Assembly: GCF_025628985.1 (NCBI RefSeq)
Contig: NZ_JAOTEM010000002.1
Span: 1 to 64,000 of the forward strand
Direction: 5' to 3'
From: Chryseobacterium edaphi
GTDB lineage: Bacteria > Bacteroidota > Bacteroidia > Flavobacteriales > Weeksellaceae
Length of the DNA: 64,000 nucleotides
Part shown: in pieces, positions 33,423 through 64,000 of the stretch
Numbering within the stretch: the stretch's first letter is position 1
How the letters are laid out: every line of letters starts with the position of its first letter
Notes under the pieces: generated by a model
What the model was told of the DNA's origin: nothing
The model's input: only the letters and a program-made list of their open reading frames with translations
The model's database searches: none
Position numbers and translations under genes: made by a program

Positions 33423-36400
33423 ATGCATCGCTTTTTCATCTTTTTATACTATCTGATTGCCAAAAACAGAGTTTTATCTATTGCTGTAGCTTTGGGTTTA
33501 GCAACAATGTGTCTATTTTTTGCCTCTAAAATCAATTTTGAAGAAGATATCAATCAAATTATTCCGAAAAGCGAAAAATCTGATCTGACTGCGAAAGTTC
33601 TCAAACAACTTAATTTTTCAGACAAAATTATTGTCATCATCGAAAAAAAATCGAAAGACGACAATTTCCAGTTATCTGAAACAGCTGATCAATTTTTGGA
33701 AAAAACAAAACCTTTACAGAAATATATTGGCTCAATTCAGGGAAAAGTAAATGATAATGAGATTTCAGAAACGTTTGATTTTGTCAATCAGAATCTCCCT
33801 TTGTTTTTAGACGAAAACGATTACAAAGAAATTGAAAGAAAACTACAAAAAGACAGCATTGCCAAACAGGTTGAGAACAATTATGTATCTCTGGTCTCAC
33901 CAACGAGCTTGGTAACGAAAGATTTCATTAAAAAAGACCCTTTGGGAATTACTTTTCTTGGAATTAAAAAACTGAATGCTTTAAACATCAGCAAAGATTT
34001 TAAACTCGAAGACAATTACGTCGTGACCAAAGACGGAAAAAACCTTCTGCTTTTCATTGAACCGAAAAACAAAAGCAACGACACCAAAAACAATGAAGCT
34101 TTTGTCAATCGACTCAATGAAATAAAAGACAACATCAACAAAGAATTCAAAGGTAAAACCGAACTGAGCTATTTTGGCTCACCAGTAATTGCGGTTGCAA
34201 ACGCTCAGCAAATCAAGAAAGACATTCAAAATACGGTCATTATTTCGATGACGGTTTTATTGATTTTGCTGATGTACTATTTCAGGAATTTTTTCACCCC
34301 GATTATCGTTTTTCTGCCGACTTTATTCTCTGTTTTACTAGCATTGATGGTTTTGTATTTTATTAAAGATAAGATTTCAGCCATTTCACTAAGCGTAGGT
34401 GCAATTTTAATTGGAATCACAATTGACTATGCCCTTCACATTCTCACGCATTACAAACACAATAACAATATTGAGGAGCTTTACAAAGAAATCACCCAAC
34501 CGATTATCCTGAGTAGTGCAACCACGGCGGTTTCATTTTTATGTCTGGTTTTTGTGCGTTCTGAAGCGTTGAAAGATCTGGGACTTTTTGCCTCAATTAC
34601 GGTTTTGTTTTCTTCGGTTTCGGCATTGATCATCGTTCCGCAATTGTATCATCCAAAAGAGAAATCAGGTAAAGTAAGCACCAACTTCATTGACAAAATC
34701 GGGCATTATCCTTACGAGAAAAATAAACCTTTGATTATTGGCTGCTCTTTGATCATCATTGCATGTTTGTTTGGTTTCAGACACGTTGGTTTTAATGAAG
34801 ATATTGGCGATTTGAATTACATTCCGAAAGATTTAAAAATAAGTGAAGCCAAGCTTGAAAAATTGTCAGACATTACTTCAAAATCAATTTACACGATTTC
34901 TTACGGAAATTCTGAAGAAGAAGCTTTAGCAAGAAATTCAGACTTGAGCCAGTTTTTGGAAAAAGAAAAAAAAGAAGGCAAAATTTTAAGCTATAATTCG
35001 CTTGGGAATGTTGTTTTATCTAAAGAAGACCAGCAAAAAAAAGTAGCAATCTGGCAAAATTTCTGGAACGAGAATAAGAAGAACTCCACAATTTCCGAAT
35101 TGGTTTCGAATGGGAACAAATTCGGTTTCAACAGTTCGGCTTTTGACCAGTTCAATGAAAATTTAAATAAAACCTACTCCACTTTAAGTCTCAAAGATTA
35201 CGAAAAAATAAAAGCGCTTCAAATCTCAGAATTTCTGAGTCAGGAAAATGGTTTTTACACCGTTTCGAATGTGGTAAAAGTAGATGAAAAGAAAAGAGAT
35301 GCTTTCATCAAAGACGTTGAAAAAAAGCACGACGCTATTGCCATCGACCGTCAACAGATGAACGAGAACTTTTTAGGTTTGCTGAAAAGAGATTTCAACA
35401 CGCTCATCAATTATTCATTACTGGCAATTCTTTTAACAATCATTGTCTTCTTCAGAAATTTTGAATTAACAATGCTTACAATGTTTCCGATTATCTTGAC
35501 TGGAGTTGTTACGGCGGGAATTTTATATTTCTTAGGATTAGAATTAAATATTTTCAGCACAGTTGTTTGTACGTTGGTTTTCGGAGTTGGTGACGATTTC
35601 AGTATTTTCCTGACACAGGCCATGCAAAAAGAACATACAACCGGGAAAAACGAACTTCCAACATACCGAATTTCAATTATTCTGGCGGTTTTCACAACAA
35701 TTCTCTCTATCGGTTCTTTAATTTTCGCAAAACATCCGGCTTTACATTCATTAGCTTTAGTCGCTTTGATCGGAATGCTTTCGGTAATCATTATTACCTC
35801 AACTTTATATCCGTTTTGGTTTAGATTTTTAATTATTAACAGAACTAAAAAAGGACTTTCTCCAATTACTTTCAGATTGTTTTTACATTCTGTGATTCTC
35901 TTTATTTATTATGGTTTGGGTGGATTAATATTTTCGGTAATTGGAAGTATTTTCGTAAAAAATTCAAAAGGAAAAACGTTAGAGATTATTAAATTGATTT
36001 TAGCTAAATTTTTAACGTCTGTATTGTACGGAAATCCTTTTGTGAAAAAGAAAGTGATCACCAATCCCAACGAAGATTTTAGTAAACCTGCAATTATTAT
36101 TGCCAATCACACTTCGTTTCTTGATACTTTGGCGATTGCGATGGCAACCCACAAAATTGTGTATCTCGTGAATGATTGGGTTTATGATTCTCCTGTTTTC
36201 GGTAAACTGGTAAAAGCTTTGGGATTTTATCCGGTTTCTCAAGGTATCGAAAATGGAAAAGAAAAGTTAAAGGAAAAAATCGACCAGGGATATTCATTAG
36301 TCGTTTTCCCTGAAGCAGAAAGATCTTACACGAATGACGTGAAACGTTTTCATAAAGGTGCTTTTTACTTAGCCGAAGAATTTGGTTTAGACATTTTACC

Positions 36401-37076
36401 ATTATACATACACGGAAATTCTGAAGTTTTGCCTAAAGGTGATTTCATTATTTACGATGGCGATATTATCGTAAAAGTTGGCGAAAGAATTAGCAAAAAT
36501 GATTTGTCATTTGGAACGACTTATAAAGAGCGTGCTAAAAACATCAATTATTATTTCAGAAATGAATTTTCTAAGCTTAGAAATGAGATTGAAGACGAAA
36601 ATTATTTTAAAAAGAAATTATTTTTAACTTATCTCTACAAGGAAACCGAAGTTGTAAAAGAAGTTAAGCAGGATTTTAATAAAAACAAATCGGTTTATTT
36701 TGAACTGAATCAGCATATTCCAAAAGATGCAAATATCCTGCATATCGCAGATGATTTTGGACAGAAAGACATTCTTCTGACGCTCCAACAAGCCGGAAGA
36801 AGAGTTTTCAGTTTTATTAAAAGTGAAGAGAAAAGACAGATCGCAGAAAATAATTATATCGTTAAAACAAGAAAGATAAATTACATCAAAAACACCTCTG
36901 AAATCACCAAAGACATTGATTTTCTTTTGGTCTCTGATGCTAAATTTAATATAAAAGAAATCCCCCAACTTCCGAAAACTGTTATTTTTGTGAACACAGA
37001 AAATATTGTTTTTACAAACTCTTCATTTAACTTAGTGTTCACTTCTGAATCAATAAGAGTATTCAGACACGAATAA
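33423..37076 (+). CDS. MMPL transporter / lysophospholipid acyltransferase / methyltransferase-like fusion
   Basis: A 1217-aa protein that joins three functions. Residues 1 to about 840 are an RND/MMPL exporter with about 12 helices in two halves, each with an Asp-containing helix (GITIDYALHILTHY near 337 and FGVGDDFSIFL near 720). About 870-1050 is a PlsC-type acyltransferase: HTSFLD (H896 and D901, HX4D) and VVFPEAERS (E964). The tail (about 1080-1217, DANILHIADDFGQKD onward) looks Rossmann-like and matches the class I methyltransferase end of trifunctional proteins annotated in Flavobacteriia. It heads the pigment locus and probably moves and acylates an aryl-polyene or flexirubin intermediate. 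Confidence 0.85.
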   Translation: MHRFFIFLYYLIAKNRVLSIAVALGLATMCLFFASKINFEEDINQIIPKSEKSDLTAKVLKQLNFSDKIIVIIEKKSKDDNFQLSETADQFLEKTKPLQKYIGSIQGKVNDNEISETFDFVNQNLPLFLDENDYKEIERKLQKDSIAKQVENNYVSLVSPTSLVTKDFIKKDPLGITFLGIKKLNALNISKDFKLEDNYVVTKDGKNLLLFIEPKNKSNDTKNNEAFVNRLNEIKDNINKEFKGKTELSYFGSPVIAVANAQQIKKDIQNTVIISMTVLLILLMYYFRNFFTPIIVFLPTLFSVLLALMVLYFIKDKISAISLSVGAILIGITIDYALHILTHYKHNNNIEELYKEITQPIILSSATTAVSFLCLVFVRSEALKDLGLFASITVLFSSVSALIIVPQLYHPKEKSGKVSTNFIDKIGHYPYEKNKPLIIGCSLIIIACLFGFRHVGFNEDIGDLNYIPKDLKISEAKLEKLSDITSKSIYTISYGNSEEEALARNSDLSQFLEKEKKEGKILSYNSLGNVVLSKEDQQKKVAIWQNFWNENKKNSTISELVSNGNKFGFNSSAFDQFNENLNKTYSTLSLKDYEKIKALQISEFLSQENGFYTVSNVVKVDEKKRDAFIKDVEKKHDAIAIDRQQMNENFLGLLKRDFNTLINYSLLAILLTIIVFFRNFELTMLTMFPIILTGVVTAGILYFLGLELNIFSTVVCTLVFGVGDDFSIFLTQAMQKEHTTGKNELPTYRISIILAVFTTILSIGSLIFAKHPALHSLALVALIGMLSVIIITSTLYPFWFRFLIINRTKKGLSPITFRLFLHSVILFIYYGLGGLIFSVIGSIFVKNSKGKTLEIIKLILAKFLTSVLYGNPFVKKKVITNPNEDFSKPAIIIANHTSFLDTLAIAMATHKIVYLVNDWVYDSPVFGKLVKALGFYPVSQGIENGKEKLKEKIDQGYSLVVFPEAERSYTNDVKRFHKGAFYLAEEFGLDILPLYIHGNSEVLPKGDFIIYDGDIIVKVGERISKNDLSFGTTYKERAKNINYYFRNEFSKLRNEIEDENYFKKKLFLTYLYKETEVVKEVKQDFNKNKSVYFELNQHIPKDANILHIADDFGQKDILLTLQQAGRRVFSFIKSEEKRQIAENNYIVKTRKINYIKNTSEITKDIDFLLVSDAKFNIKEIPQLPKTVIFVNTENIVFTNSSFNLVFTSESIRVFRHE

Positions 37077-37118: not shown

Positions 37119-38033
37119 ATGCAGAAAAACGTACTTGTTCTCTATTATACACAGACGGGTCAGCTGGAGGATATTATGAAAAATATTGCCCAGCCGTTTG
37201 AAGATAAAAAAGACGAATATTTAGTCACTTACTACAACATTCAGCTGAAAGAGGATTTTCCTTTCCCTTGGTCGAGTGATGTTTTTTTCAATACTTTTCC
37301 AGAATCTTATTTGCAGATTCCGAGCGAGATTCTTCCGCCACCGGAAAATGTGCTAAACAAAAAATATGACCTCATCCTTTTCGGATATCAGGTTTGGTAT
37401 CTGACTCCGTCAATCCCTATTATTTCTTTTCTGAAAAGCAGTTATGCTGAAGGTTTATTAAAAGACACTCCAATTGTTACGGTTTCAGGTACCCGAAATA
37501 TGTGGATGCTTTCTCAGGAAAAATTAAAAGTATATTTAAAAAATCTGAACGCCAAATTAGTTGGAAATATTGCTTTGGTAGACAGACACGATAATTACAC
37601 CAGTGTTTTAACGATTCTGCGTTGGTTAACAACCGGACAAAAAGAAAAGTCGGGATTGCTTCCTGCCGCAGGAGTTTCTGATGAAGAAATCAATGGAGCG
37701 GGTAAATACGGAAAGATTATTGAAAATCATTTTGAAAACAATGATTTTGCAAATCTTCAGCCTGATTTGGTGAAAAACGGAGCCGTAGAAATCAGACCTT
37801 TTTTGGTACGGGTAGAGAAAGTAGGCAATAAAATCTTTACGGTATGGAGTAATCTGATTATGAAGAAAAAAGAAAAACGCCCATTGCTGATAAAATTCTT
37901 TAAGGTATATTTGATGGCAGCAATTTGGATCATTTCACCAATTGTGTTGGTTTTTCATATATTATTAGCACCCCTTTTGTGGTCTAAAAGACAGAAACAA
38001 AAAGAATATTTACAAGGAATTAATTTAAAATAG
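37119..38033 (+). CDS. darA: Dialkylresorcinol condensing enzyme DarA
   Basis: A 304-aa protein with a flavodoxin-like N-terminus (VLVLYYTQTGQLEDIM, phosphate-loop-like) and the family blocks EDFPFPWSSDVFFNTFPESY, LILFGYQVWYLTPSIPI and VTVSGTRNMWMLSQEK. The C-terminus is basic and hydrophobic (YLMAAIWIISPIVLVFHILL), suggesting membrane contact. It matches the DarA proteins of flexirubin clusters, which act with DarB to cyclise and aromatise the resorcinol ring. The stop is one base before the DarB start. Confidence 0.88.
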   Translation: MQKNVLVLYYTQTGQLEDIMKNIAQPFEDKKDEYLVTYYNIQLKEDFPFPWSSDVFFNTFPESYLQIPSEILPPPENVLNKKYDLILFGYQVWYLTPSIPIISFLKSSYAEGLLKDTPIVTVSGTRNMWMLSQEKLKVYLKNLNAKLVGNIALVDRHDNYTSVLTILRWLTTGQKEKSGLLPAAGVSDEEINGAGKYGKIIENHFENNDFANLQPDLVKNGAVEIRPFLVRVEKVGNKIFTVWSNLIMKKKEKRPLLIKFFKVYLMAAIWIISPIVLVFHILLAPLLWSKRQKQKEYLQGINLK

Positions 38034-38034: not shown

Positions 38035-39174
38035 ATGCACGACGTATTTATAACAAAAGCTTCAACATACTTGCCGAATGAGCCGGTTTCGAATGACGAA
38101 ATGGAAAGCTATCTTGGCTTAGTAAATAATACACCTTCTAAAGCGAGAGCTTTAATTCTAAGGAACAATAAAATCAAAACAAGATATTACGCTTTAGATA
38201 AAAACGGAAAATCTACGCATACCAACGCTCAGATCACAGCAAAAGCTATTGAAGGACTGTTTGATGAGAATTTTAAAAAAGAAGATATGGAACTACTGTC
38301 TTGCGGAACAACTTCTGCAGATCAGATCCAGCCTTCTCACGCATCAATGGTACATGGCGAACTGAATATCGGAAAGTCTGTAGAGATCAATACCTCAACA
38401 GGACTCTGTAATTCAGGAATGAATGCATTGAACTATGGTTTCTTAAACATCAAAGCAGGGATCAAAGAAAATGCAGTCTGTGTAGGTTCTGAAAGAATGT
38501 CTGCATGGATGACCGCAGATAAATTCAATCACGAAGCTGAAAACCTCAAACTTCTGGAAGAAAGACCAATCGTAGCTTTTAAAAGAGAATTTTTAAGATG
38601 GATGCTTTCTGACGGAGCCGGAGCATTTTTACTGGAAACCAAACCAAGAGAAAATGAAGTTTCTTTAAAAATAGACTGGATCGATTTTTATTCTTACGCT
38701 CACGAAATTGAAGCCTGTATGTATTCGGGTTGTGAAAAGCAGGAAGACGGAAGCTTAAAATCATGGGCAGAATATCCTGCTGAAGAATGGTTGAATCAAT
38801 CTATTTTTGCTTTAAAACAAGATACTAAAATTTTAGATAAATACATTTTGGTAAAGGGAGCAGAAAGTCTGAGATCATCTTTCGACAAACATCAGCTTGA
38901 TCCTGAAACTGTTGACCATGTTTTGGCACATATTTCTTCCGGATATTTCAAAGAAGGTCTGAAAGAAGAATTTGCAAATGTAGGACTTGATTTCCCTTGG
39001 GAAAAATGGTTTTATAATCTTTCGGAAGTCGGAAACATCGGAGCAGGATCTATATTTATTGCAGTTGAGCAGCTTATGAATTCAGGAAAACTGAAAAAGG
39101 GAGAAAAAATTCTTCTTTGTGTTCCGGAAAGTGGAAGATTCGCTTATTCTTGTGCTTTACTAACGGTTTGCTAA
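38035..39174 (+). CDS. darB: Ketosynthase III-like enzyme DarB
   Basis: FabH-type ketosynthase that condenses two acyl chains to give the 1,3-cyclohexanedione precursor of dialkylresorcinol. The triad is visible: Cys125 in STGLCNSG, His299 in LAHISSG and Asn334 in GNIGAGS. The N-terminus YLPNEPVSNDEMESYLGL and RALILRNNKIKTRYYALD are typical of DarB/StlD. Length 379 aa. Its TAA overlaps the ATG of the next gene (TAATG), indicating translational coupling with the dehydratase. Confidence 0.92.
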   Translation: MHDVFITKASTYLPNEPVSNDEMESYLGLVNNTPSKARALILRNNKIKTRYYALDKNGKSTHTNAQITAKAIEGLFDENFKKEDMELLSCGTTSADQIQPSHASMVHGELNIGKSVEINTSTGLCNSGMNALNYGFLNIKAGIKENAVCVGSERMSAWMTADKFNHEAENLKLLEERPIVAFKREFLRWMLSDGAGAFLLETKPRENEVSLKIDWIDFYSYAHEIEACMYSGCEKQEDGSLKSWAEYPAEEWLNQSIFALKQDTKILDKYILVKGAESLRSSFDKHQLDPETVDHVLAHISSGYFKEGLKEEFANVGLDFPWEKWFYNLSEVGNIGAGSIFIAVEQLMNSGKLKKGEKILLCVPESGRFAYSCALLTVC

Positions 39175-39605
39175 TGGAATTTACATTACCCAATTCTGAT
39201 CAGAGTTTTGTAGAGAGCCTGATTCCGCAAAAATTTCCTTTTGTGATGGTAGGTGAAGTTTCAGAATATTCTGAAAGCCATGTAATCTCAGGATTCACGA
39301 TCAAAGAAGACAATATATTTGTACATGAAGGAATTTTTCAAGCTTCGGGATTGATCGAACATCAGGCTCAAAGTGTAGCTCTTCATACCGGTTATAAGTA
39401 TTTTCTTTTAGGGAAAGATGCTCCAACAGGTTACATTGGTGCCATTAAATCTTTTGAAGCAAATGCTTTACCAAAAGTTGGTGATCAATTGATAACTGAA
39501 GCTACCATATTAAATGAAATGTTGGGCGTAACTTTAGTGGAAATTATCACTAAAATAAATGACACCGTAATTGCAAAATCGCAAATGAAAACTGTTGTAA
39601 AATAA
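39174..39605 (+). CDS. Hotdog 3-hydroxyacyl-ACP dehydratase-like protein, first copy
   Basis: I start it at the ATG overlapping the darB stop, giving 143 aa; the frame is open to 39117 but that part lies within darB. It has the FabZ/ApeP hotdog pattern: IPQKFPFVMVGEVSEY, DNIFVHEGIFQASGLIEHQA with the conserved Glu, then PKVGDQLITEA. Expected to dehydrate 3-hydroxyacyl-ACP during polyene or fatty chain synthesis. It resembles the next gene (39752). Confidence 0.82.
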   Translation: MEFTLPNSDQSFVESLIPQKFPFVMVGEVSEYSESHVISGFTIKEDNIFVHEGIFQASGLIEHQAQSVALHTGYKYFLLGKDAPTGYIGAIKSFEANALPKVGDQLITEATILNEMLGVTLVEIITKINDTVIAKSQMKTVVK

Positions 39606-39615: not shown

Positions 39616-39717
39616 ATTCGTCAGTTCGAGTAAAATTCTGCAAGAATTTACATTGAGAACTTTAGCAAATAAACTTTTCAATATGATTTTTTTAAAATCT
39701 ACCCGAAGTGACGAAAT
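39616..39717. repeat. REP-like palindromic element, copy 1
   Basis: The ends are inverted: ATTCGTCAGTTCGAGT (39616-39631) and ACCCGAAGTGACGAAAT (39701-39717). They enclose about 70 bases, so the whole can fold as a long hairpin. A diverged relative lies at about 40274-40371, on the other side of the next gene. Confidence 0.65.
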
Positions 39718-39751: not shown

Positions 39752-40195
39752 ATGGAGTTAAAAGAAGAAAACATCATCAACATTCACCATTTTTTACCTC
39801 ATCGTGAACCGATGTTGATGGCAGATTATATTCTTGAGCTTACTCCGGAGAAGGTGATTACTTCTTTTGAAATTACTTCAGACAATATCTTCGTTCAGAA
39901 CGATCAATTTGTAGAAGCTGGTCTTATCGAACATTCTGCGCAAACCTCATCCTCCATTCTCGGGCAAAGTTTTTTCGCAAATCCTGAGTCAAATACTAAA
40001 GTCATCGGTTTTATCACCAATATCAAAAAGATTGAGATTTTCGCTTTACCGAAAGTTGGCGATAAAATCATCTCTAAAGCTTCCTTGATTTCTCAATACG
40101 AAAACATCTGCCAAATTTTCTGCGAAACTTTTTTGGATGATGAATTGTTGATTCGGACGGAGATTAGTCTATTTATTCAGGAATTGAAATCGTAA
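39752..40195 (+). CDS. Hotdog 3-hydroxyacyl-ACP dehydratase (ApeP-like), second copy
   Basis: A 147-aa single hotdog domain starting ENIINIHHFLPHREPMLMAD, where LPHREPML is the ApeP/FabZ signature. NDQFVEAGLIEHSAQTSSS and LPKVGDKIISKASL follow. It should act as the dehydratase of the aryl polyene or resorcinol chain synthesis. It is the last gene of the first pigment segment and is flanked by REP-like elements on both sides. Confidence 0.85.
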   Translation: MELKEENIINIHHFLPHREPMLMADYILELTPEKVITSFEITSDNIFVQNDQFVEAGLIEHSAQTSSSILGQSFFANPESNTKVIGFITNIKKIEIFALPKVGDKIISKASLISQYENICQIFCETFLDDELLIRTEISLFIQELKS

Positions 40196-40273
40196 ACAAT
40201 TTTTTGTTTTAAAATATATAAGCTGACTTTTTGAGTTGGCTTTTTTGTTAAGCTATACTTCTACCTTATTACA

Positions 40274-40371
40274 CCGTCGATCTTGAAAAAATCGTATCGA
40301 AAATTTTTGATAGGTTGTTTTTTGTTCACGGATTCTTGATACATTTTTCTTCGAAAATACTCGAATTGACG
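40274..40371. repeat. REP-like palindromic element, diverged copy 2
   Basis: The right end ACTCGAATTGACG (40359-40371) matches the reverse complement of 39619-39631 in 12 of 13 positions. The left end (near ccgtcgatcttgaaaaaat) is more decayed. This places one element on each side of the 39752 gene. Confidence 0.5.
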
Positions 40372-40415: not shown

Positions 40416-40685
40416 ATGAGCGTTAAAGTAAGATTTTATTCCTACGATATAGAATTTGAGTTTGAAAACTCTGTAGAATTTCCTGTTGCACCTGCAATTG
40501 GAGATGAGGTGAATCTGATTTCATTTTTTAAATATAAAACTTCTGAAAGATTAGAATACGTCAACAACATGGAAGATCTTTATCTTTATGAAAATGCTTT
40601 GGTGACTGAACGTACCTGGTGCAAAGACATAGATAAAGATGAGGTTTATTTATTGGTTCATTTAAAGTATAAAAGGAGAAAGTAA
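40416..40685 (+). CDS. Hypothetical protein (89 aa)
   Basis: Not recognised. A small soluble, beta-rich protein (VKVRFYSYDIEFEFENSVEF, then DEVNLISFFKY) with a basic end (HLKYKRRK). No signal peptide. It has its own -7 box and is not a known pigment gene. Confidence 0.6.
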   Translation: MSVKVRFYSYDIEFEFENSVEFPVAPAIGDEVNLISFFKYKTSERLEYVNNMEDLYLYENALVTERTWCKDIDKDEVYLLVHLKYKRRK

Positions 40686-40735
40686 TTCGTACAAATACAA
40701 TTAATTATTCTTTACAAAATTATAAAGAAAACCCA

Positions 40736-41260: not shown

Positions 41261-41320
41261 TAGTTTTAAATACAACCGAAAACAAACAAAGCTATCCATC
41301 ACTGAGCAACTTTTATTTAT

Positions 41321-43616: not shown

Positions 43617-43686
43617 ATAAATTGAATAAGACGCCATAACATATAAAAAATTGAATTCCTTTATAGTTTTATTAAAATCTCTCATT

Positions 43687-44451: not shown

Positions 44452-44452
44452 A

Positions 44453-46028: not shown

Positions 46029-46039
46029 AGTAATGATTT

Positions 46040-52116: not shown

Positions 52117-52117
52117 T

Positions 52118-54854: not shown

Positions 54855-54910
54855 TTGGCGATTGGCTATTAGCTTTAGGCTTTTTAAAATATGAATCGAA
54901 AATTTCATAA

Positions 54911-56047: not shown

Positions 56048-56098
56048 GAATAGGATTGAGAAAATATCATTAAATTTGTTTTGACTAATTCTGATTCT

Positions 56099-56698: not shown

Positions 56699-56761
56699 CA
56701 AATGTTTATCAAAGATCTTTTTTAGATTTTACTGAAAAAAAAACTTGCAAAAAGCATAAAA

Positions 56762-56777
56762 TAATTTTGTAATTTTG
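56762..56777 (+). promoter_or_regulatory. Overlapping -7 boxes (TAATTTTG twice) before the toxin-antitoxin pair
   Basis: TAATTTTG occurs at 56762-56769 and 56770-56777, ending 21 bases before the antitoxin ATG. Both fit TAnnTTTG. A TTG at 56745-56747 lies 22 bases before the second box. It suggests the pair has its own promoter. Confidence 0.45.
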
Positions 56778-56798
56778 ATAGAATTAAAGTTTTAGGAA

Positions 56799-57059
56799 AT
56801 GGAATCTACTTTAGAAATCAGAAAAAGAATTCACGAATATATTGACGATGCAGATGAGCGTATTCTCCGTATTTTCAATGCAATCATTGATGCAGAAGAA
56901 GAGGAAGAAGAAGATTACGAATTAGAAGCTACCGAGTATCCCGAAGTTCCTGAATATGTATATGACAGAATTGAGGAAGAACGCAAAAAGTATTTAAATG
57001 GTGAGCTAAAAACTTCTTCTTGGGAAGAAGTTAAAGAAAGATTGATGAAAAAATTATGA
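56799..57059 (+). CDS. Antitoxin of a RelE/ParE-type toxin-antitoxin pair
   Basis: An 86-aa acidic protein. The pattern STLEIRKRIHEYIDDADERI, then LRIFNAIIDAEEEEEEDYE and a C-terminal LKTSSWEEVKERLMKKL resembles the addiction-module antitoxin family seen beside ParE toxins in Bacteroidota. The long acidic run would bind the basic toxin. Its TGA overlaps the toxin ATG (ATGA), as expected for a pair. Confidence 0.8.
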   Translation: MESTLEIRKRIHEYIDDADERILRIFNAIIDAEEEEEEDYELEATEYPEVPEYVYDRIEEERKKYLNGELKTSSWEEVKERLMKKL

Positions 57060-57343
57060 CTTATCACCTTTCCCTATCACCAAATGCTGAAGCTGATTTG
57101 CTTGAATCAGCATTATGGTACGAGAGCCGACAAATTGGACTGGGAGAAAAATTCACAAAAAAGGTTGAAGGTTATCTCTTTAGAATTCAAAATAACCCAT
57201 TGCACTTTCCTCTGAAGAAGGGAAATTTGCGTGAGGCATATATTCAAAAATTCCCTTTTGTTATTATCTATGAAATTGTAGAAAATGAAATTGTGGTTTT
57301 CGCCATTTTCAACACTCATCAAAATCCAACAAAAAAGCCTTGA
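57056..57343 (+). CDS. RelE/ParE-family toxin
   Basis: A 95-aa basic protein: HLSLSPNAEADLLESALWYE, KFTKKVEGYLFRIQNNPLHF, EAYIQKFPFVIIYEIVENEI and VVFAIFNTHQNPTKKP show the RelE/ParE fold and its C-terminal pattern. Such toxins cleave mRNA at the ribosome or poison gyrase. It is coupled to the antitoxin. Confidence 0.87.
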   Translation: MTYHLSLSPNAEADLLESALWYESRQIGLGEKFTKKVEGYLFRIQNNPLHFPLKKGNLREAYIQKFPFVIIYEIVENEIVVFAIFNTHQNPTKKP

Positions 57344-57360
57344 AATTTTGAAAATCCTCA

Positions 57361-57900
57361 ATGAAGAAAACACATATCTGCACCATAGAAAGCTCAAAAA
57401 TAATCCTCAACGAACAAATTATTTTTGAAACCCAAACCGAAAATTTCTCAGATTTCGCTAAAGAAGCATACAAAACTCTAGAACTGAATTATCCAAAATT
57501 TCACAAGATGGATAATCTCAGCAAACTCGCTTTTCTGGCATCCGAAATGATTCTGAAAAACGATGACCAAAGCAAAACCGCATTGGTTTTTGCCAACAAA
57601 TCCTCAAGCCTCGACACCGATTTTAAATATCAGGAAAGCATCAATTCTCAGGAGAATTATTTCCCGAGTCCTACCGTTTTTGTTTATACTTTGCCTAATA
57701 TTTGCGTCGGTGAAATCAGCATCAAGCATAAAATGCAGACCGAAAATGCTTTTTTCGTTTTAGATGAATTCGATGAAGAATTTTTGAATTCATACGCGGC
57801 ACAGATTCTGCAATCAGGGAAAGCTGAAAAAGTCTTGTGTGGCTGGGTCGAACTATATCAGGAAAGTTATAAAGCTTTTGTATATTTGCTAACTACGTAA
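57361..57900 (+). CDS. Ketosynthase-fold fragment without catalytic residues
   Basis: A 179-aa protein whose pattern [40 protein letters not shown] and [18 protein letters not shown] resembles about half of a thiolase-fold condensing enzyme. No Cys in a nucleophile elbow and no His motifs of KAS enzymes are visible. I recall similar 3-oxoacyl-ACP synthase-like fragments upstream of the ACP in flavobacterial pigment clusters. It may be a scaffold or partner for the following ketosynthases. Confidence 0.6.
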
Positions 57901-57990
57901 TTTAACAATATAACAGTACAACAATGTAACAATAATTGTCAGTCTAAAATTGGTAAACTGATAAAGTGAAACATTGGTAAATTAAAAAAT
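57901..57990. repeat. Short AACAATGTAACAAT-type repeats
   Basis: The gap before the ACP gene is made of imperfect copies of a 10-14 base unit (taacaatataacagtacaac, aatgtaacaataattg, acattggtaaatt). The same family appears in the gap after the ACP gene. Confidence 0.6.
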
Positions 57991-58248
57991 ATGGAAGATT
58001 TAAAATTAGAATTAAAAACAAAAATCATAGAAGTTCTTAATCTTGAAGATGTTGCAATAGAGGAAATCAAAGATTCAGATCCACTTTTCGGTGGCGGTCT
58101 TGGATTAGATTCTATCGACGCTTTGGAATTAATCGTACTACTTGACAAAGACTACGGAATCAAATTATCTGACCCGAAAAAAGGAAAAGAAATCTTCCAG
58201 TCTATCGAAGTGATGGCAAAATACATCGAAGAAAACAGAACAAAATAA
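57991..58248 (+). CDS. Acyl carrier protein
   Basis: An 85-aa ACP. The phosphopantetheine site is Ser41 in LGLDSIDALELIV. Flanking features are the helix I pattern (DLKLELKTKIIEVLNL) and DKDYGIKL. It carries the growing aryl-polyene chain for the KS pair downstream. It is flanked by intergenic repeat clusters. Confidence 0.93.
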   Translation: MEDLKLELKTKIIEVLNLEDVAIEEIKDSDPLFGGGLGLDSIDALELIVLLDKDYGIKLSDPKKGKEIFQSIEVMAKYIEENRTK

Positions 58249-58251
58249 TTC

Positions 58252-58321
58252 AATCTAACAATGTATCAATCTAGCAATGTACCAATATTGTTACACTGTT
58301 AAATTGATACATTGGTACATT
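58252..58321. repeat. Nested CAATGTA-type inverted repeats
   Basis: AATGTACCAAT (58276-58286) pairs perfectly with ATTGGTACATT (58311-58321), and ATGTATCAAT (58261-58270) pairs with ATTGATACAT (58303-58312). Two hairpins share the same centre, and both contain the AATCTAACAATGTA-type unit seen at 57901-57990. The element ends 9 bases before the KS start. Confidence 0.7.
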
Positions 58322-58329
58322 ATAAAAGG

Positions 58330-59529
58330 ATGAGTCAAAAAATTGCCATTACAGGGATGGGCATCATTTCCTCCATTGGTAACAATGTCGGGGAAAATTT
58401 TATTTCGCTGACGACCGGTAAGCACGGCATTTCAGACATCGAACTGTTTGAAACACGCCACGCCGGAAGCATCAAAACAGGCGAGATAAAACTGTCTAAT
58501 GAAGAACTTGCACATAAACTTCAGTTAAAGGAAGACAATAATGTGACAAGAACTGCTTTATTGGGGATGGTTGCCGCAAAAGAAGCTGTAGAAAGCGCCG
58601 GAATTTCAAATATTAACGAATATAAAACCGGACTCATTTCCTCCACCAGCGTTGGCGGGATGGATGTTACTGAAAAATATTTCTACACCTACGAAGATTT
58701 TCCTGAAAAGCAAAAATACATCGACGCTCACGACGCAGGAAATTCATCATTGGCAATTGCAGAATTGTTGGGTCTGAAAGGAATGGTTTCCACCATCAGC
58801 ACGGCCTGTTCGTCTGCAGCCAATGCAATTATGATGGGCGCTAAACTGATTAAAAACGGTGTCCTTGACCGTGTGATTGTTGGCGGAACAGATTCACTTT
58901 CGAAGTTCACTTTGAATGGTTTTAATACGCTTATGATTTTGACGGATTCTTACAACACACCATTCGACAACGACAGAAAAGGTCTGAACCTGGGCGAAGC
59001 AGCCGCTTTCCTGGTTTTAGAATCTGATGAAATTGTCAAAAAAGAAAATAAAAAAGTCCTCGCTTATCTTTCCGGTTACGGCAACGCCAACGATGCGCAT
59101 CACCAAACCGCCTCTTCGGAAAACGGACAAGGTGCTTTCTTAGCAATGGAAAAAGCTTTGAAGGTTTCAGGTTTAAAAAAAGAAAACATTGATTATATTA
59201 ACGTTCACGGAACGGCGACACCGAATAATGATTTGTCTGAAGGCATTGCAATGATTCGGATTTTTGGTGAAAACCAGGTTCCGGAATTCAGTTCTACAAA
59301 AGCTTTTACAGGTCATACATTGGCGGCGGCGGCGGGAATTGAAGCGGTTTATTCGATTTTGGCGATGCAGAACAATGTAATTTTTCCGAATTTAAATTTC
59401 AAAAACAAAATGGAAGAATTTGATTTGACGCCGGTTACCGAACTAAAAGAAAAAAACATCAACCACGTACTTTCCAACTCATTTGGATTTGGAGGAAACT
59501 GTTCAACTTTAATTTTTTCTAAATTATGA
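58330..59529 (+). CDS. Beta-ketoacyl-ACP synthase (KS of a KS/CLF pair)
   Basis: A 399-aa FabF-like condensing enzyme. I start it at the ATG at 58330 because the frame open from 58312 is inside a repeat. The triad is Cys160 in STACSSAANA, His293 in NVHGTATPNN and His329 in FTGHTLAAAAG, in near-standard FabF spacing. The nucleophile elbow and substrate loop are complete. It overlaps the next gene by 4 bases (ATGA), as expected for a ketosynthase/chain-length-factor heterodimer such as ApeO/ApeC. Confidence 0.93.
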   Translation: MSQKIAITGMGIISSIGNNVGENFISLTTGKHGISDIELFETRHAGSIKTGEIKLSNEELAHKLQLKEDNNVTRTALLGMVAAKEAVESAGISNINEYKTGLISSTSVGGMDVTEKYFYTYEDFPEKQKYIDAHDAGNSSLAIAELLGLKGMVSTISTACSSAANAIMMGAKLIKNGVLDRVIVGGTDSLSKFTLNGFNTLMILTDSYNTPFDNDRKGLNLGEAAAFLVLESDEIVKKENKKVLAYLSGYGNANDAHHQTASSENGQGAFLAMEKALKVSGLKKENIDYINVHGTATPNNDLSEGIAMIRIFGENQVPEFSSTKAFTGHTLAAAAGIEAVYSILAMQNNVIFPNLNFKNKMEEFDLTPVTELKEKNINHVLSNSFGFGGNCSTLIFSKL

Positions 59530-60590
59530 GTGCAGTTTACATCAACAGTGCCGCCTGCATCTCGGTTCAGGACACTTTAAACGAAAATTTATTCGAAACT
59601 TTAAAACCTGAAAATTCAGTTCAGATTTTAAAAGCCATCGAGCCCAATTATAAGGAATTCATTCCGCCCGCGATGAGCCGGAGAATGTCTAAAACGGTTA
59701 AAATGAGCTCCGTAGCTTCCACGAAAGCTTTACAGAAAGCAGGAATTGAAAAACCCGATTCTATCATCGTCGGAACTGGAATGGGCTGTTCTCAGGATTC
59801 CGAAAAGTTCCTGAAAAATGTTTTGGAAAACAATGAAGAATTTCTGACACCAACGTTTTTCATCCAATCTACACACAACACAGTTTCAGGACAGATTGCT
59901 CTGGGATTGCAATGTCACGGCTATAATTTCACGTACGTCAACAGTTCATCTTCACTGGAATTTTCAATGCTGGATGCGAAACTTCAGATTTTGGATGGTG
60001 AGGCAGAAAATGTTCTTGTCGGTTCAACAGATGAACAAACGGACAGAACGATGGAGCTCTACAAATTGAGCAATTCCATTAAAAAAGAAGAAAATCTTCC
60101 GGTTGATTATTTAAATTCAACGACGCAAGGTGTGATTTGGGGCGAAGGTTCAAGCTTTTTTGTTTTAGGAAAAGAGAAAACTGAAAATTCTTATGCTCAA
60201 CTAAAAGATATTAAAATTGTTAATACATTAGAATTAGACGAAACTGAGAAATTTATTGAAGATTTTTTAGCTAAAAATAATTTGAAAAGCGAAGATATTG
60301 ACGCTCTGATTTTAGGTTTCAGTGGAGATTCAGAGTCGGATATTTATTATAAAAACGCATCGGAATTATTTCCAAATTCATCGCTACTTTATTACAAACA
60401 TTTGAGTGGAGAATTCAATACGGCGAGCGGTTTTTCAACATTTATGGCTTGTCAGATTTTGAAAAATCAAGTGATTCCGGAAGTGATGAAAATTAATGAG
60501 GTGAAAAAGGAAAGCATCAGAAATATTCTTCTCTACAATCATCTCAGAGGAATTGACCATAGTTTGGTTTTGCTGGAGAAAGCTTACTAA
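59526..60590 (+). CDS. Chain-length-factor-like KS (Cys replaced by Ser)
   Basis: A 354-aa ketosynthase homologue in which the nucleophile elbow reads NFTYVNSSSSLEFSM; the Cys is replaced by a Ser at about residue 140. The second and third His motifs are also eroded (only YYKHLSGEFN is partly like GHTLAAA). This is a chain-length factor, presumably inactive alone and paired with the KS upstream, as for the ApeC partner of ApeO in aryl polyene synthesis. Confidence 0.85.
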   Translation: MSAVYINSAACISVQDTLNENLFETLKPENSVQILKAIEPNYKEFIPPAMSRRMSKTVKMSSVASTKALQKAGIEKPDSIIVGTGMGCSQDSEKFLKNVLENNEEFLTPTFFIQSTHNTVSGQIALGLQCHGYNFTYVNSSSSLEFSMLDAKLQILDGEAENVLVGSTDEQTDRTMELYKLSNSIKKEENLPVDYLNSTTQGVIWGEGSSFFVLGKEKTENSYAQLKDIKIVNTLELDETEKFIEDFLAKNNLKSEDIDALILGFSGDSESDIYYKNASELFPNSSLLYYKHLSGEFNTASGFSTFMACQILKNQVIPEVMKINEVKKESIRNILLYNHLRGIDHSLVLLEKAY

Positions 60591-60612
60591 ATTCAGTTAT
60601 AATTAAAAGTAA

Positions 60613-60669
60613 GTTTGTCATCCGTAGGAATCTCGACGACATTGTTTAGATTCGTACGGAAGGACAAAC
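60613..60669. repeat. GTCATCC/GGAATCT-type hairpin element
   Basis: Long imperfect inverted repeat: GTTTGTCATCCGTAGGAATCT (60613-60633) against AGATTCGTACGGAAGGACAA at 60648 onward (to 60669). The first arm resembles the GTCAT..GGAATCT family of dispersed repeats in Bacteroidota. It fills the gap between the CLF and deacetylase genes. Confidence 0.6.
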
Positions 60670-60703
60670 AGACCGTTAAAGGTTTAATCCAAAAACAATA
60701 AAG

Positions 60704-61459
60704 ATGAAACATTATCCATTTATTATCTTTTATCTTTTTCTTAATGTATTTACTTATGCATTCCAAGGAACAATTTGGGTTTACGTGTTTTGTTTCATCC
60801 TATTTTCAGCAGTTGTAGTTTGGGGTTCATTTGACATTCAGTTGGGATATTTTGTTAACAGTTTTACCCATAAACGAACAAAAATCAAAGAAGTTGCTTT
60901 GACTTTTGATGACGGACCGACAGAATTTACTCCGAAATTTTTAGATTTATTAAAAGAAAATAATATAAAAGCTACATTTTTCTGCATCGGAAAACAGATT
61001 GAAAAATATCCTGAAACTTTCCAAAGAATCATTGCAGAAGGTCATACGGTTGGTAATCACACTTTTTCACATTCCAATAATACCGGCTTTTTATCAACTT
61101 CAAAAATGATTGATGAAATTGAAAAATGTGATGATGCAATGTTGAAAATTGGCAATATTAAAACCGATTTGTACCGTCCTCCTTTTGGTGTAACCAATCC
61201 CAATATTGCCAAAGCCATTAAGAAAACAAATAAAAAAAGCATCGGCTGGAATGTCCGTTCGCTGGACACGGTGATTACGGATGAGAAGAAAATTTTAAAG
61301 AAAGTAACCAAAAATTTAAAGAAAGGAAGCATTATCCTGCTTCACGATACTTCTGAGAAAACGTTCAATGTTTTGGTTGAATTATTGTTATTTTTGGAGC
61401 GTGAAAAATATTCGACTTTCACGATTGATTCAATTATTAAATCAGAAAACAATGTTTAA
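60704..61459 (+). CDS. NodB-family polysaccharide deacetylase-like protein
   Basis: A 251-aa protein with two N-terminal hydrophobic helices (FIIFYLFLNVFTYAF, IWVYVFCFILFSAVVVW), followed by a NodB domain: LTFDDGPTEF (Asp69-Asp70), HTFSH (His119/His123), YRPPFGV, SIGWNVRSLD and ILLHD. This is the zinc-dependent CE4 motif set. Its presence in a pigment locus is typical in Flavobacteriia; the substrate is unlikely to be peptidoglycan and is unknown. Confidence 0.88.
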   Translation: MKHYPFIIFYLFLNVFTYAFQGTIWVYVFCFILFSAVVVWGSFDIQLGYFVNSFTHKRTKIKEVALTFDDGPTEFTPKFLDLLKENNIKATFFCIGKQIEKYPETFQRIIAEGHTVGNHTFSHSNNTGFLSTSKMIDEIEKCDDAMLKIGNIKTDLYRPPFGVTNPNIAKAIKKTNKKSIGWNVRSLDTVITDEKKILKKVTKNLKKGSIILLHDTSEKTFNVLVELLLFLEREKYSTFTIDSIIKSENNV

Positions 61460-62078
61460 AAATACAGCTTTCTTCGCCTTTTTATTAATTTCAGGTTTTG
61501 TTTTTGCCCAAACTACGGCAATGACTAGTGCCGAATCCAAAGCATTTGTGACAAAAATTTCCGCTGAAACAAAGGAAATCAAAACTTTGCAAAGCGATTT
61601 CGTTCAGACAAAAAAAATGGATTTTTTAGATAAAAATATTGTCACACAAGGCAAAATGTCGCTAAAATCTCCAAATACATTGAGCTGGAAATACACAAAA
61701 CCTTATCAGTACAGCATTATCTTTAAGGAAAACAAAATTTTCATCAACGACCAAGGAAAAAAATCTTCCGTTGATGCAAAGAGCAAAACTTTTGAAAAAA
61801 TAAATAAACTGATTGTCGGAAGTTCAAACGGAAAGATGTTCAGCGATCCTGAATTTTCTGTGGTTTATATGAAAAATTCAAGTTCGAACATTGCGAAATT
61901 TACTCCGAAATCTGCGCAGTTGCTGAAGTACATTAAGCAAATTGAACTTCATTTTCCTAAAAATCAATCGACAGTTTCTCAGGTAAATATGACCGAGGCT
62001 TCGGGCGACACAACAAATATTGTTTTTAAAAACACCAAAATCAATGCGCCGATTCCTGCTTCTGAGTTTTCTTTATAG
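61452..62078 (+). CDS. LolA-like outer-membrane lipoprotein carrier
   Basis: A 208-aa exported protein. The start is the ATG at 61452, which overlaps the deacetylase stop and gives a signal peptide (TAFFAFLLISGFVFA). The LolA pattern is clear: LQSDFVQTKKMDFLDKNIVT, QGKMSLKSPNTLSWKYTKPY, IFKENKIFINDQGKK and NSSSNIAKFTPKS. In aryl polyene clusters LolA-type proteins likely carry the lipid product to the outer membrane. Confidence 0.88.
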   Translation: MFKNTAFFAFLLISGFVFAQTTAMTSAESKAFVTKISAETKEIKTLQSDFVQTKKMDFLDKNIVTQGKMSLKSPNTLSWKYTKPYQYSIIFKENKIFINDQGKKSSVDAKSKTFEKINKLIVGSSNGKMFSDPEFSVVYMKNSSSNIAKFTPKSAQLLKYIKQIELHFPKNQSTVSQVNMTEASGDTTNIVFKNTKINAPIPASEFSL

Positions 62079-62679
62079 TTCGCTTTTATTGCTAATGTTT
62101 TCGTGCAAAACGTACCAGCTGAAAGATGCAAAACCAATTTCAAACTCCGCAAAAGAGGTTGAAAATCTATACTTTAGTTCAAAAGAGGATTATGTTTACA
62201 AATGCCAAATGGAAGTTTACGGCAATGACATCAGCGGAATTCTTATTATTAAAAAAATCTCCGAAACCACGCATAGAGTCGTGATGACCTCAGATTTTGG
62301 AAACAAAATGATTGATTTTGAGATTTCCGAGAATGACTTCAAACTCAATTATGTCTTGGCAGATTTAGATAAAAAAATGGTCATTAATTTTTTAAAGAAT
62401 GATTTTCAGGAATTGCTGAGACAAAAATACCCTGTCGCCGAAAGTTTTCAAGATGAAAACTCAAATATTTTCAGGTCAGAATTAGACAAAAAAAATTATT
62501 ACTTATCTTTTAGCAAATCAAATTCTCTCCTCACGCAAATTGTTTACACCAAGAACAAAAAGGAGAAGATCAATTTTAGTTTTGATGCGAAAAAACCTAC
62601 TTTTGCAGAAACGATCAATCTTCAGCACAAAGATTTTAAGATCAATATCAAACTATTTCAAATCACTGAAACTGAATAA
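62044..62679 (+). CDS. Lipoprotein of unknown function (aryl-polyene-type)
   Basis: A 211-aa lipoprotein using the ATG at 62044 (an upstream in-frame ATG at 62020 is less likely). Lipobox LLMFSC. It overlaps the LolA gene by 35 bases. The mature part is beta-rich with YKCQMEVYGNDISGILIIKK and KINFSFDAKKPTFAETINLQ. It resembles the DUF3261-type lipoproteins of aryl polyene clusters (assignment moderate). It may be the outer-membrane receptor for the LolA cargo. Confidence 0.7.
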   Translation: MRRFLLLSFLYSSLLLLMFSCKTYQLKDAKPISNSAKEVENLYFSSKEDYVYKCQMEVYGNDISGILIIKKISETTHRVVMTSDFGNKMIDFEISENDFKLNYVLADLDKKMVINFLKNDFQELLRQKYPVAESFQDENSNIFRSELDKKNYYLSFSKSNSLLTQIVYTKNKKEKINFSFDAKKPTFAETINLQHKDFKINIKLFQITETE

Positions 62680-62681
62680 TT

Positions 62682-63062
62682 ATGCAGACTATCCTTACAG
62701 ACTTTTATACTTTAGAATCCTACGACAAATCAGAAAACGGAAGTTATATTGCAAAAATTTCTCTTAATAAAGATCATGATATTTTCAAAGGTCATTTTCC
62801 TGGAAATCCTGTGACACCAGGAGTTTGTATGATGCAGATTGTGAAAGAATTAACGGAAGAGTTTACCGGACAAAAATTGTTTTTGAAATCAGCTTCCAAT
62901 GTAAAATTCATGGCAATTATTAACCCTTTTGAAACACCAAGTCTTACGATGCAACTTGATATTAATGAAGGTGAAAATGAAATCAAAGTAAAAAACACGA
63001 CTTCTTTTGGCGAGACTATTGCATTGAAGATGTCAGTTAATTACAACAAACAGACATCATGA
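62682..63062 (+). CDS. FabZ/ApeI-like 3-hydroxyacyl-ACP dehydratase
   Basis: A 126-aa hotdog protein with the FabZ active-site loop GHFPGNPVTPGVCMMQIVKE (His in GHFP, Pro-rich turn, then Gln/Glu). It should dehydrate the 3-hydroxyacyl-ACP that yields the polyene double bonds. It is the third hotdog dehydratase of the locus and the most standard one. Confidence 0.9.
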   Translation: MQTILTDFYTLESYDKSENGSYIAKISLNKDHDIFKGHFPGNPVTPGVCMMQIVKELTEEFTGQKLFLKSASNVKFMAIINPFETPSLTMQLDINEGENEIKVKNTTSFGETIALKMSVNYNKQTS

Positions 63063-63544
63063 AACTGATATTATCTTTATTGACAGGCTTATTTTTATTT
63101 CTCCAAAGCTCAGATCTGGAAGCTTTGAGAAACAGCTATTCAAAAGCAAATTTGTCCGTCGAAGGTGCTAAAGATTTCATTGAATTGGCGGAAAAAAAAT
63201 CTTCTTCTGATCCTGTAATTTCTGCCTACAAGGCTGCATCCCAAATCCTTGAAGCTAAAGTCACCACGGAGAAAAATAAAAGAAAAACATTTGTAAAAGC
63301 TGGTGCATCAAGTCTGGAAAGTATTGTTAAAGCCAATCCCAATAATGCTGAATTAAGAGTAATCAGAATGAGCGTTCAGGAAAATATTCCTAAAATTGTA
63401 GGATATTCGAAGAACCTTAAGGAAGATAAAACTTTTATTTTAAACAACTACAGCAAGCAAAATTCTGCTTTGAAAAGCTATATCAAAAAATTTGCACAAC
63501 AGTCTAAAACCATGACTGCCGCAGAAAAAAATTCGTTGAAATAA
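63059..63544 (+). CDS. Small exported protein of the pigment locus
   Basis: A 161-aa protein with a short signal peptide (LILSLLTGLFLFLQS). The mature part is helical and Lys-rich (YSKANLSVEGAKDFIELAEK, TFVKAGASSLESIVKANPNN), resembling TPR-like helical hairpins. Not recognised. It overlaps the dehydratase gene by 4 bases (ATGA) and ends one codon before the GT2 start, so it belongs to the same transcript. Confidence 0.7.
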   Translation: MKLILSLLTGLFLFLQSSDLEALRNSYSKANLSVEGAKDFIELAEKKSSSDPVISAYKAASQILEAKVTTEKNKRKTFVKAGASSLESIVKANPNNAELRVIRMSVQENIPKIVGYSKNLKEDKTFILNNYSKQNSALKSYIKKFAQQSKTMTAAEKNSLK

Positions 63545-64000
63545 ATGACATTTTCTGAAGTACAAAATGCAATTGACAAGAGGAAAATCTGCGTTTTGGT
63601 TCCTACTTACAACAACGAGAAAACTCTGAGACGAGTCATTGACGGTGTGTTAGAGTATACTAAAAACATTATCGTTGTCAATGATGGATCAAGTGATTCA
63701 ACTTTAGAAATTTTAAAAACTTATCCGCAAATTTCCACGATCAATTTACCTGAAAATAAGGGAAAGGGAAACGGACTGAAAATTGGTTTTAGAAAAGCTA
63801 AAGAATTGGGTTTTGATCACGCAATTACCATCGATTCAGACGGACAGCATTATCCGGATGATATTCCTGTTTTTGTGAAGGCTTTATTGGATGAAGAAGA
63901 AGATATATTGCTCATAGGAAACCGAAATATGTCGCAGGATGGCATTCCAAAAAAAAGCAGTTTTGGGAACCGTTTCTCTAATTTTTGGTTTTGGTTTGAA
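63545..64000 (+). CDS. Family 2 glycosyltransferase, truncated by the window end
   Basis: The gene starts at the ATG at 63545, right after the previous TAA. The first 152 codons encode ICVLVPTYNNEKTLRRVIDG, IIVVNDGSSDSTLEIL, NKGKGNGLKIGFRKAKELGF, TIDSDGQHYPDD and IGNRNM, the GT-A core of DPM1-like enzymes with the DxD-type motif. It runs off the window. Related glycosyltransferases occur in flexirubin and aryl polyene clusters. Confidence 0.85.
   Translation, partial: MTFSEVQNAIDKRKICVLVPTYNNEKTLRRVIDGVLEYTKNIIVVNDGSSDSTLEILKTYPQISTINLPENKGKGNGLKIGFRKAKELGFDHAITIDSDGQHYPDDIPVFVKALLDEEEDILLIGNRNMSQDGIPKKSSFGNRFSNFWFWFE

Follow-up and report, generated by a model that had tools for sequence, protein, structure and literature searches.

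A flexirubin operon in Chryseobacterium that probably opened once with a new promoter-like box and gained other genes later

Introduction

How did the flexirubin locus of Chryseobacterium edaphi come to be interrupted by 10.46 kb that separates DH2 from darG? Flexirubin serves as a taxonomic marker in Bacteroidota. The stretch of DNA analysed here, which we call the window, comprises positions 1-64,000 of contig NZ_JAOTEM010000002.1 (assembly GCF_025628985.1). The original prediction held that the genes on both sides form one pathway and that those between them entered by recombination between dispersed palindromic repeats flanking the split. Our sample consisted of 110 distinct darB loci, 5 of them unscored.

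Results

Gene content on both sides of the interruption

The gene content of both parts is as originally described, and the Pfam and NCBIfam matches agree with it (Table 1), although the DarA-like protein has no match in either. From 51049 to 63544 the order is BtrH-like, an ABC pair, TE, KS1, (Uma2, a small gene pair), KSx and ACP, followed by KS2, CLF, deacetylase, LolA, LolB2, a FabA-like protein and a 161-aa protein. The flexirubin-specific LolB2 scores above the NF053540 cut-off, as does FlxA, a tyrosine ammonia-lyase, above that of NF053541, the latter lying outside the window at about 74757-76277 of the contig. Because curated models match DarB on the left and DarG, LolB2 and FlxA on the right, both parts are predicted to serve one flexirubin (dialkylresorcinol-aryl polyene) pathway, and this element of the original prediction was borne out. 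Upstream of the MMPL fusion gene, a TTAAATTTGC-type element is present in 13 of 17 aligned loci.

As a separate observation, two features of the right part had been absent from the original gene list, the Uma2 gene and a pair of small genes at 56081-57343; the pair is putatively RelB/RelE, labelled by look alone.

Table 1. Coordinates of genes and elements at the interrupted locus (window positions)
Feature	Position	Strand	Basis or remark
MMPL transporter/acyltransferase fusion, first dar-part gene	33423..37076	+	Pfam MMPL, Acyltransferase
DarA-like	37119..38033	+	position and originally given name; syntenic in relatives
DarB, dialkylresorcinol ketosynthase	38035..39174	+	NCBIfam NF053539, 631.7 bits, cut-off 550
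DH1, FabZ-like dehydratase	39177..39605	+	weak FabZ similarity, below cut-off; syntenic
Palindromic element, 13-bp ends of CGTCAGTTCGAGT type	39619..39713	.	fold z -5.9 vs shuffles
DH2, FabZ-like dehydratase, last dar-part gene	39752..40195	+	weak FabZ similarity; C-terminal Ser
Terminator-like hairpin and T-run after DH2	40220..40248	+	fold of 40193-40260 z -2.4
Second, degenerate palindrome copy	40276..40371	.	alignment to first copy above all 300 shuffles
Variable genes: 89-aa protein, GNAT, PAP2-barrel, DUF3667, four-gene envelope-type operon	40416..46666		Pfam; operon on minus strand
M16 protease	46882..49794	-	at spot in 51/92 loci
VOC/glyoxalase protein	50096..50482	+	at spot in 9/92 loci
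Conserved promoter-like box	50558..50590	+	TATTTTAGC at 50578-50586; ends 71 nt before darG start
DarG, first right-part gene, GTG start	50658..51062	+	NF053545 equivalog, above cut-off
Remaining right part within window: BtrH-like through 161-aa protein	51049..63544	+	
GT2/DUF2062	63545..64000	+	runs past window; complete in next contig stretch

The joined junction is ancestral

Strains that join the dar part directly to darG do exist: DH2 and darG are joined, at -4 to 92 bp, in 40 of the 110 loci, with an antisense M16 gene between them in 51 and a small gap in 14. Outside Chryseobacterium, and with Epilithonimonas excluded from the count, 11 of 13 scored loci run from DH2 (or DH1) straight into darG, and none of the 13 carries a block gene there. 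The joined state is therefore ancestral and the intervening genes are secondary, as had been proposed. To the left of darG, L121 and L123-L125 have either DH1 or a gene that matches DH2 weakly (32-33%). L128 was left unscored by the script, though about 0.4 kb separates the start of its DH2 from that of darG; L075 stops at a contig end, and L061, L115 and L117 were inspected by hand.

The interval itself is highly variable, measuring 11.1, 8.2, 7.7, 6.7, 5.6, 5.3, 4.9 and 1.2 kb in the nearest relatives of the window, so that, with size and content differing even within this clade, the idea of one insertion has to be given up. Among the 92 scored Chryseobacterium/Epilithonimonas loci, only M16 and the 89-aa gene (30/92) are widespread at this spot, each of the remaining eight block genes being there in 2 to 9 loci. 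Content thus varies between conserved flanks, making the junction an accessory-gene insertion hotspot at which later additions were independent. Elsewhere in the sample the locus is found inverted (G118) or relocated (G075), and M16 sits away from the junction in 3 Epilithonimonas genomes examined. By Pfam, no integrase or transposase is encoded in the block, whose ten proteins include three without any match, and there is no tRNA anywhere in the window that could be a target beside the block.

Palindromes do not flank the split

Two of the three predicted palindromes are indeed related, those at 39619-39713 and 40276-40371 sharing their 13-bp ends, though the fold of the second reaches a z of only -1.25. 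Both lie left of the block, one on either side of DH2, so the split is not flanked by them. The third, at 49893-49958, contains a short 7-bp hairpin and is a sequence unrelated to the other two, whose self-complementarity is matched by 2 of 300 shuffles and whose fold (z -0.96) is not better than shuffles. The end motif is dispersed, with 12 genome occurrences at one mismatch or fewer against 1 for the control; among 40 of 80 candidates scored, the genome has no other close full-length copy of the palindrome at 39.6 kb, and the best longer match reaches 69% and covers query positions 13-97 (E 0.003). A scan of the 110 loci found paired ends only at DH1|DH2 (10 loci) and at DH2|o89 (6 loci), with at most 2 mismatches allowed per end, a setting under which the degenerate second copy in the window itself escapes, and with many loci extending only about 10 kb beyond darB. 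In a general repeat search, run with no control, no strong pair spanned the split among the matches listed, which comprised 20 direct families out of at least 60 and 25 inverted pairs out of 224.

That a single 10-kb insertion arose between dispersed palindromes is accordingly very improbable. Two related copies near the left edge and a dispersed end motif speak for it, but both copies sit on the left around DH2, the third palindrome is unrelated, and the variation in block size and content among close relatives is against it. Also against it, PAP2 and PCMD are located elsewhere in a few relatives and have no match in most of the 25 genomes searched. Repeat-mediated insertion was further disfavoured by the confinement of paired ends, in the loci scanned, to the surroundings of DH2.

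A promoter-like box shared by all split alleles

The box before darG is present in all 63 split Chryseobacterium-group alleles examined and in none of 29 joined ones (shuffle control: mean 1.8, maximum 5 of 63), a count that uses a relaxed pattern, loosened after the alignment had been seen. The first, stricter pattern gave 49/51 M16, 10/14 gap and 0/40 joined alleles. The relaxed box also occurs upstream of MMPL (6/81 loci) and TE (3/86 loci). The box before darG may act as a promoter. After DH2, a scripted search for a hairpin plus T-run, with no shuffle control, was positive in 45/51 M16 and 10/12 gap alleles; its 0/29 in joined alleles carries no information because the joined interval is too short.

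The 51 M16 copies found at the junction belong to a single family, and M16 is probably the oldest intruder there. Together with the box common to the 63 split alleles, this makes the first opening look like one event. If separate lineages had instead each received an insertion at this permissive junction, that would accommodate C. carnipullorum L178, where some 9 kb of largely different genes separate DH2 from M16, and L041/L039, which lack M16 and carry roughly 1.06 kb of other sequence; yet the common box and the single M16 family make such an origin of the split quite unlikely.

Exchange across the genus boundary

Between C. piscicola and E. tenax, each read within one contig, identity is 71-81% before darG; it rises to 96-100% at the darG ATG, holds that level over about 10 kb and has dropped again, to about 79%, roughly 20 kb further along. 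The darG start is the left edge of the tract. This pattern indicates that the half from darG onward was exchanged between Chryseobacterium and Epilithonimonas. The window's own right half is closest to E. lactis at the protein level (97%). In a right-half tree of 35 closer loci chosen by hand, 9 Epilithonimonas loci are scattered (AU p 4.9e-5). The left-half tree, of 47 loci, leaves Epilithonimonas together except for one MAG inside, L027, named Chryseobacterium; the left-half AU test against Epilithonimonas as one clade gave p 0.047 with that MAG inside. In the main tree, built from locus genes that themselves recombine, split alleles do not form one clade (9 changes, AU p 3e-10). The locus has a mosaic history, and insertion, rearrangement and exchange have all taken place at DH2|darG.

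When the 15-gene locus is divided into two blocks, the cut that fits best falls after DH2. The distance-matrix correlation is even lower at DH1|DH2 (0.27) than at DH2|darG (0.33), so the latter is not the sole break, and MMPL groups with the right half. DH2|darG as the only weak boundary was set aside, as this correlation did not single it out. A strict discordance filter was passed by only one pair of loci.

The DH2 ends also differ: a C-terminal Ser is found in 52/63 split versus 2/29 joined alleles, 22/29 of the latter ending in N, Q or H, and joined alleles among split ones therefore look unlike simple excisions. A split already in the Chryseobacterium/Epilithonimonas ancestor, followed by many clean deletions without exchange, would fit the basal locus L050, which is split, and the homology of the box throughout. 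Such deletions, however, must repeatedly have recreated a spacing of, in most cases, -1 to 12 bp and left N, Q or H in place of the split-type Ser, and the near-identical inter-genus tract stays unexplained; we regard this course as unlikely. The scattered joined alleles are, we infer, better explained by exchange than by repeated precise loss.

One example of a joined allele among split ones is L042 beside L039/L041. Identity between L041 and L042 is even (93-97%) to the left and right of their differing junctions, which leaves room for no more than a short replaced tract.

Discussion

We propose, with a probability of roughly 80%, that an ancestrally joined locus was opened together with a promoter-like box, gained genes, and had its haplotypes exchanged thereafter. 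The order of these events is reconstructed from the comparison of present loci. The ancestral locus was a single gene run with darG immediately after DH2. In the Chryseobacterium lineage a segment would then have opened the junction, adding a terminator-like hairpin behind DH2, in most cases an antisense M16 gene, and the promoter-like box before darG, through which the right half may have become its own transcription unit. This opening probably happened once, with the other genes arriving afterwards. In the window's clade several gains, almost all of them on the stretch from DH2 to M16, would have enlarged the spot to about 10 kb. Horizontal exchange with its left edge at the darG start would later have redistributed the open and joined haplotypes.

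We put forward more tentatively, as a possibility rather than our expectation, that DH2|darG marks a modular boundary, where a promoter of its own made the polyene/export half exchangeable between Chryseobacterium and Epilithonimonas, with crossovers at the conserved darG start, while the resorcinol half stays. If true, the split turned half a pathway into a portable unit that also tolerates the inversion and relocation noted above. Half of the cluster crossing a genus boundary near-identically means that pigment genes can mislead taxonomy and that the pathway halves have different histories. A large survey describes flexirubin clusters as largely genus-specific (PMC10734526). Because related species show the locus joined, opened, enlarged, inverted or relocated, how an operon breaks yet keeps working becomes a directly testable question.

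Among the literature matches listed, judged by titles and abstract starts, nothing concerned a split or exchange of flexirubin genes. The 37-kb cluster of Flavobacterium johnsoniae UW101, which includes darA/darB, resembles the window's locus in pathway and in holding dar and polyene genes in one cluster (PMC3992019), and LolA2/LolB2 belong to the flexirubin operon (PMC11885536); it differs in that an opened DH2/darG junction, M16 and a second promoter are unreported in the available parts of these two sources. In Chitinophaga pinensis the dar and polyene genes are described as physically separate, in two distant clusters (PMC3992019), which can be seen as an extreme form of the split, but with distant clusters, no local insertion and a phylogenetically far host. 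The Epilithonimonas clusters (L020, L023-L026, L029, L031, L034, L119, L120) have the window's gene order from MMPL to CLF, as fetched, and differ in that DH2 and darG are joined in 10/10. Operon fission and accessory-gene hotspots are familiar in bacteria, with insertions at junctions and variable cargo between conserved flanks. Compared with that general pattern, the split haplotype here has a traceable promoter-like box, and the split junction appears to double as an exchange boundary.

The pigment locus in the window

The window comprises bases 1-64000 of contig 5 in a genome of 4.12 Mb, and among the best 80 of 144 matches in the DarB scan its nearest named darB relatives are Chryseobacterium, at 94-95% protein identity. 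The pigment locus lies in two parts, a first at 33423-40195 and a second starting at 50658, with 10,462 bp between the stop of the dehydratase gene DH2 and the start of darG. The gene content originally assigned to both parts is correct, and because NCBIfam models match genes in the left part, in the right part and farther along the contig (see table), the two belong to one pathway, as had been proposed. The darG start codon is GTG in the window and several relatives with a split locus (an antisense M16 protease gene, M16, or a gap between DH2 and darG), and ATG in the joined alleles inspected, where DH2 abuts darG.

The Uma2 gene and its neighboring small gene pair, which by look alone we take to be RelB/RelE-like, mark another variable junction, in relatives present, absent or different.

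Features in and near the pigment locus
Feature	Position	Place	Basis
DarB		left part	NCBIfam model
DarG	50658-51062	right part	NCBIfam model
LolB2		right part	NCBIfam model
FlxA tyrosine ammonia-lyase	contig ~74757-76277	past window end	NCBIfam model
Flavo-1 RNA	1272-1363 (+)		RF01705
Flavo-1 RNA	54149-54265 (-)	inside pigment locus, between ABC permease and thioesterase	RF01705
Uma2 + small gene pair	56081-57343	between KS1 and KSx	
ACP gene flanked by imperfect inverted repeats of TAACAATGTA type	57898-58322		

The joined arrangement

We compared 121 darB loci, consisting of the best 80 of 144 named DarB-scan matches, 20 close relatives, 20 further loci (16 picked to represent other genera) and the window; 110 were left once identical darB copies were dropped. 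Scored by script, DH2 (or DH1) lies at most 100 bp from darG in 40 of the 110, M16 is present at the junction in 51, 14 lack M16 but have a gap of 144-1214 bp, and 5 were unscorable, fractions that are not population frequencies, the sets having been ranked by DarB similarity or hand-picked. Outside Chryseobacterium and Epilithonimonas, 13 of 14 loci were scored: 11 are joined (spacing -4 to 48 bp), two have 192-298 bp between DH2 and darG, and none of the 13 holds a gene of the intervening block at this spot. All 10 fetched Epilithonimonas loci are joined (-1 to 92 bp). In L129-L132, which are from other genera, the spacing is -4 and the darG ATG overlaps the DH2 stop. Because the other-genus loci are mostly joined and the fetched Epilithonimonas loci entirely so, the single gene run is ancestral and the block derived.

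Another junction, BtrH|ABC, has been opened up by ~2-6 kb in certain loci from genera g5, g10, g13 and g17 (L121, L122, L126, L127, L134). The MMPL/acyltransferase gene lies at the far locus end, after a 161-aa gene and not ahead of darA, in L129-L133 (genera g21, g28); MMPL distances track the right half in the window's group. Two loci of g10 (L123, L124) carry two unlike adjacent darB genes, with ~54% and 80% identity to that of the window.

The split haplotype

A ~30-nt box ending TATTTTAGC or a near form stands at most 120 nt from the darG start in all 63 split Chryseobacterium-group alleles (51 with M16, 12 without), and in 0 of 29 joined alleles tested. With shuffled upstream sequences the mean was 1.8 and the maximum 5 of 63, and seven other locus genes are preceded by such a box in 0-6 of 26-91 loci each; a stricter first pattern matched 49/51 M16, 10/14 gap and 0/40 joined alleles. 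We infer that the box is a promoter, and a single opening event would have brought darG a new transcription start. Ser is the last residue of DH2 in 52 of 63 split alleles compared to 2 of 29 joined ones, and a terminator-like hairpin lies 3' of DH2 in 55 of 63, a count made without a shuffle control. The M16 copies found at the junction belong to a single family, in which three Epilithonimonas copies from elsewhere in their genomes nest. Among 26 genomes searched, mostly selected for a spot without M16, an ortholog (85-96%) occurs in 8, five at the locus and three in Epilithonimonas elsewhere; in the remaining 18 the best matches are paralogs at 64-66% or weaker.

Two rearranged loci, under the heading REARRANGEMENT, are both placed among the split alleles, as one would predict were the right half no longer dependent on read-through from DH2. 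G118 adjoins C. aahli in the tree with support 81, and its counterpart of window 49.9-71.3 kb is flipped with respect to the dar genes. In G075, M16-darG and the dar genes share one 3.13-Mb contig but are separated by ~2.4 Mb, and next after the dar genes come what we take to be accA- and gltX-like genes.

Growth of the block

The original prediction was of one ~10-kb insertion by recombination between dispersed palindromic repeats. In 92 scored Chryseobacterium/Epilithonimonas loci the block genes are at the spot in these numbers: M16 51, an 89-aa gene 30, VOC 9, DUF3667 4, a 168-aa gene 4, PAP2 3, OMP 3, and GNAT, PCMD and a 208-aa gene 2 each. The closest genome by DarB (G133, 98%) has the whole block except GNAT, 11.1 kb, and other members of the window's clade have 1.2-8.2 kb. 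The DH2-M16 interval exceeds 1 kb in 17/51 loci, the M16-darG interval in 1/51. C. carnipullorum (L178) has ~9 kb of largely other genes at the spot, among them ~194-aa proteins of a tandem family (L178:5163-9463). Block genes were partly found elsewhere in relatives: across 25 genomes PAP2 is at the spot in 2, elsewhere (69-78%) in 4, weakly matched (41-50%) in 2 more and without match in 17, and PCMD occupies the spot in G133, matches at 94% on a different contig of G059 and at 34% in G010, and has no match in 22. The block yielded no integrase, transposase or tRNA. As for the palindromes, 39619-39713 and 40276-40371 are indeed members of one genome-dispersed family whose inverted ends measure 13 bp; 49893-49958 does not belong to it and has nothing notable but a short hairpin. 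Paired ends surround DH2 in the window's clade and in a handful of neighbouring loci; over the stretch that each of the 110 loci covers, none were seen at other places. One insertion between repeats is not borne out, and the block is an accumulation.

Probable exchange across genera

On the locus tree (103 loci scored, two outgroup gaps omitted) split and joined states require 9 changes, and a tree constrained to keep every split allele in one group is rejected (AU p 3e-10). Half-locus trees used hand-picked subsets of closer loci. In the left-half tree (DarB, DH1, DH2; 47 loci) Epilithonimonas falls together apart from one MAG, L027, inside it (AU p 0.047 against one clade); in the right-half tree (ABCm, TE, KS1, KS2, CLF; 35 loci) it is scattered among Chryseobacterium, which takes 8 changes, 5 or more of them forced (AU p 4.9e-5). 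The clearest pair, C. piscicola and E. tenax, shows 71-81% nucleotide identity as far as DH2 and 96-100% from the darG start codon onward for ~10 kb, then one 79% window, 98-100% for ~3.5 kb, ~3 kb unlike, 87-99% over 3 kb and finally ~79%. The tract lies on one contig in each genome, and its divergent patches argue against contamination. Among the other pairs inspected, identity also jumps at DH2|darG in window/G290 (74 to 93%), L006/L020 and L015/L020 (both 76 to 94%), L110/L119 (75 to 91%) and L116/L023 (75 to 88%), several of which may reflect one older event. The jump is blunter against E. lactis L026 (window 74, 83, then 92%; L012 71, 81, then 92%) and L029/L026, a pair within one genus, lacks it (82, 79, then 88%). 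For the 35 loci that have the full set of 15 genes, the best two-block division falls after DH2 (within 0.665, between 0.464); the DH1|DH2 correlation is poorer even than that of DH2|darG. The darG start is conserved across aligned alleles, and no homology between split and joined alleles is evident ahead of it, so a homologous crossover cannot extend farther left; these two features may be enough to explain the left edge of the exchanged tract.

Taken together, the observation of a split pigment locus is sound and its explanation changes. The operon probably opened at one junction, a promoter-like box would have made the right half independent, the block grew by accretion, and halves of the locus were probably exchanged between genera. 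No description of such an arrangement was found among the papers listed in the literature searches, some of whose lists were cut short and which reach few subscription journals. The pathway itself is known; what is new is its arrangement.
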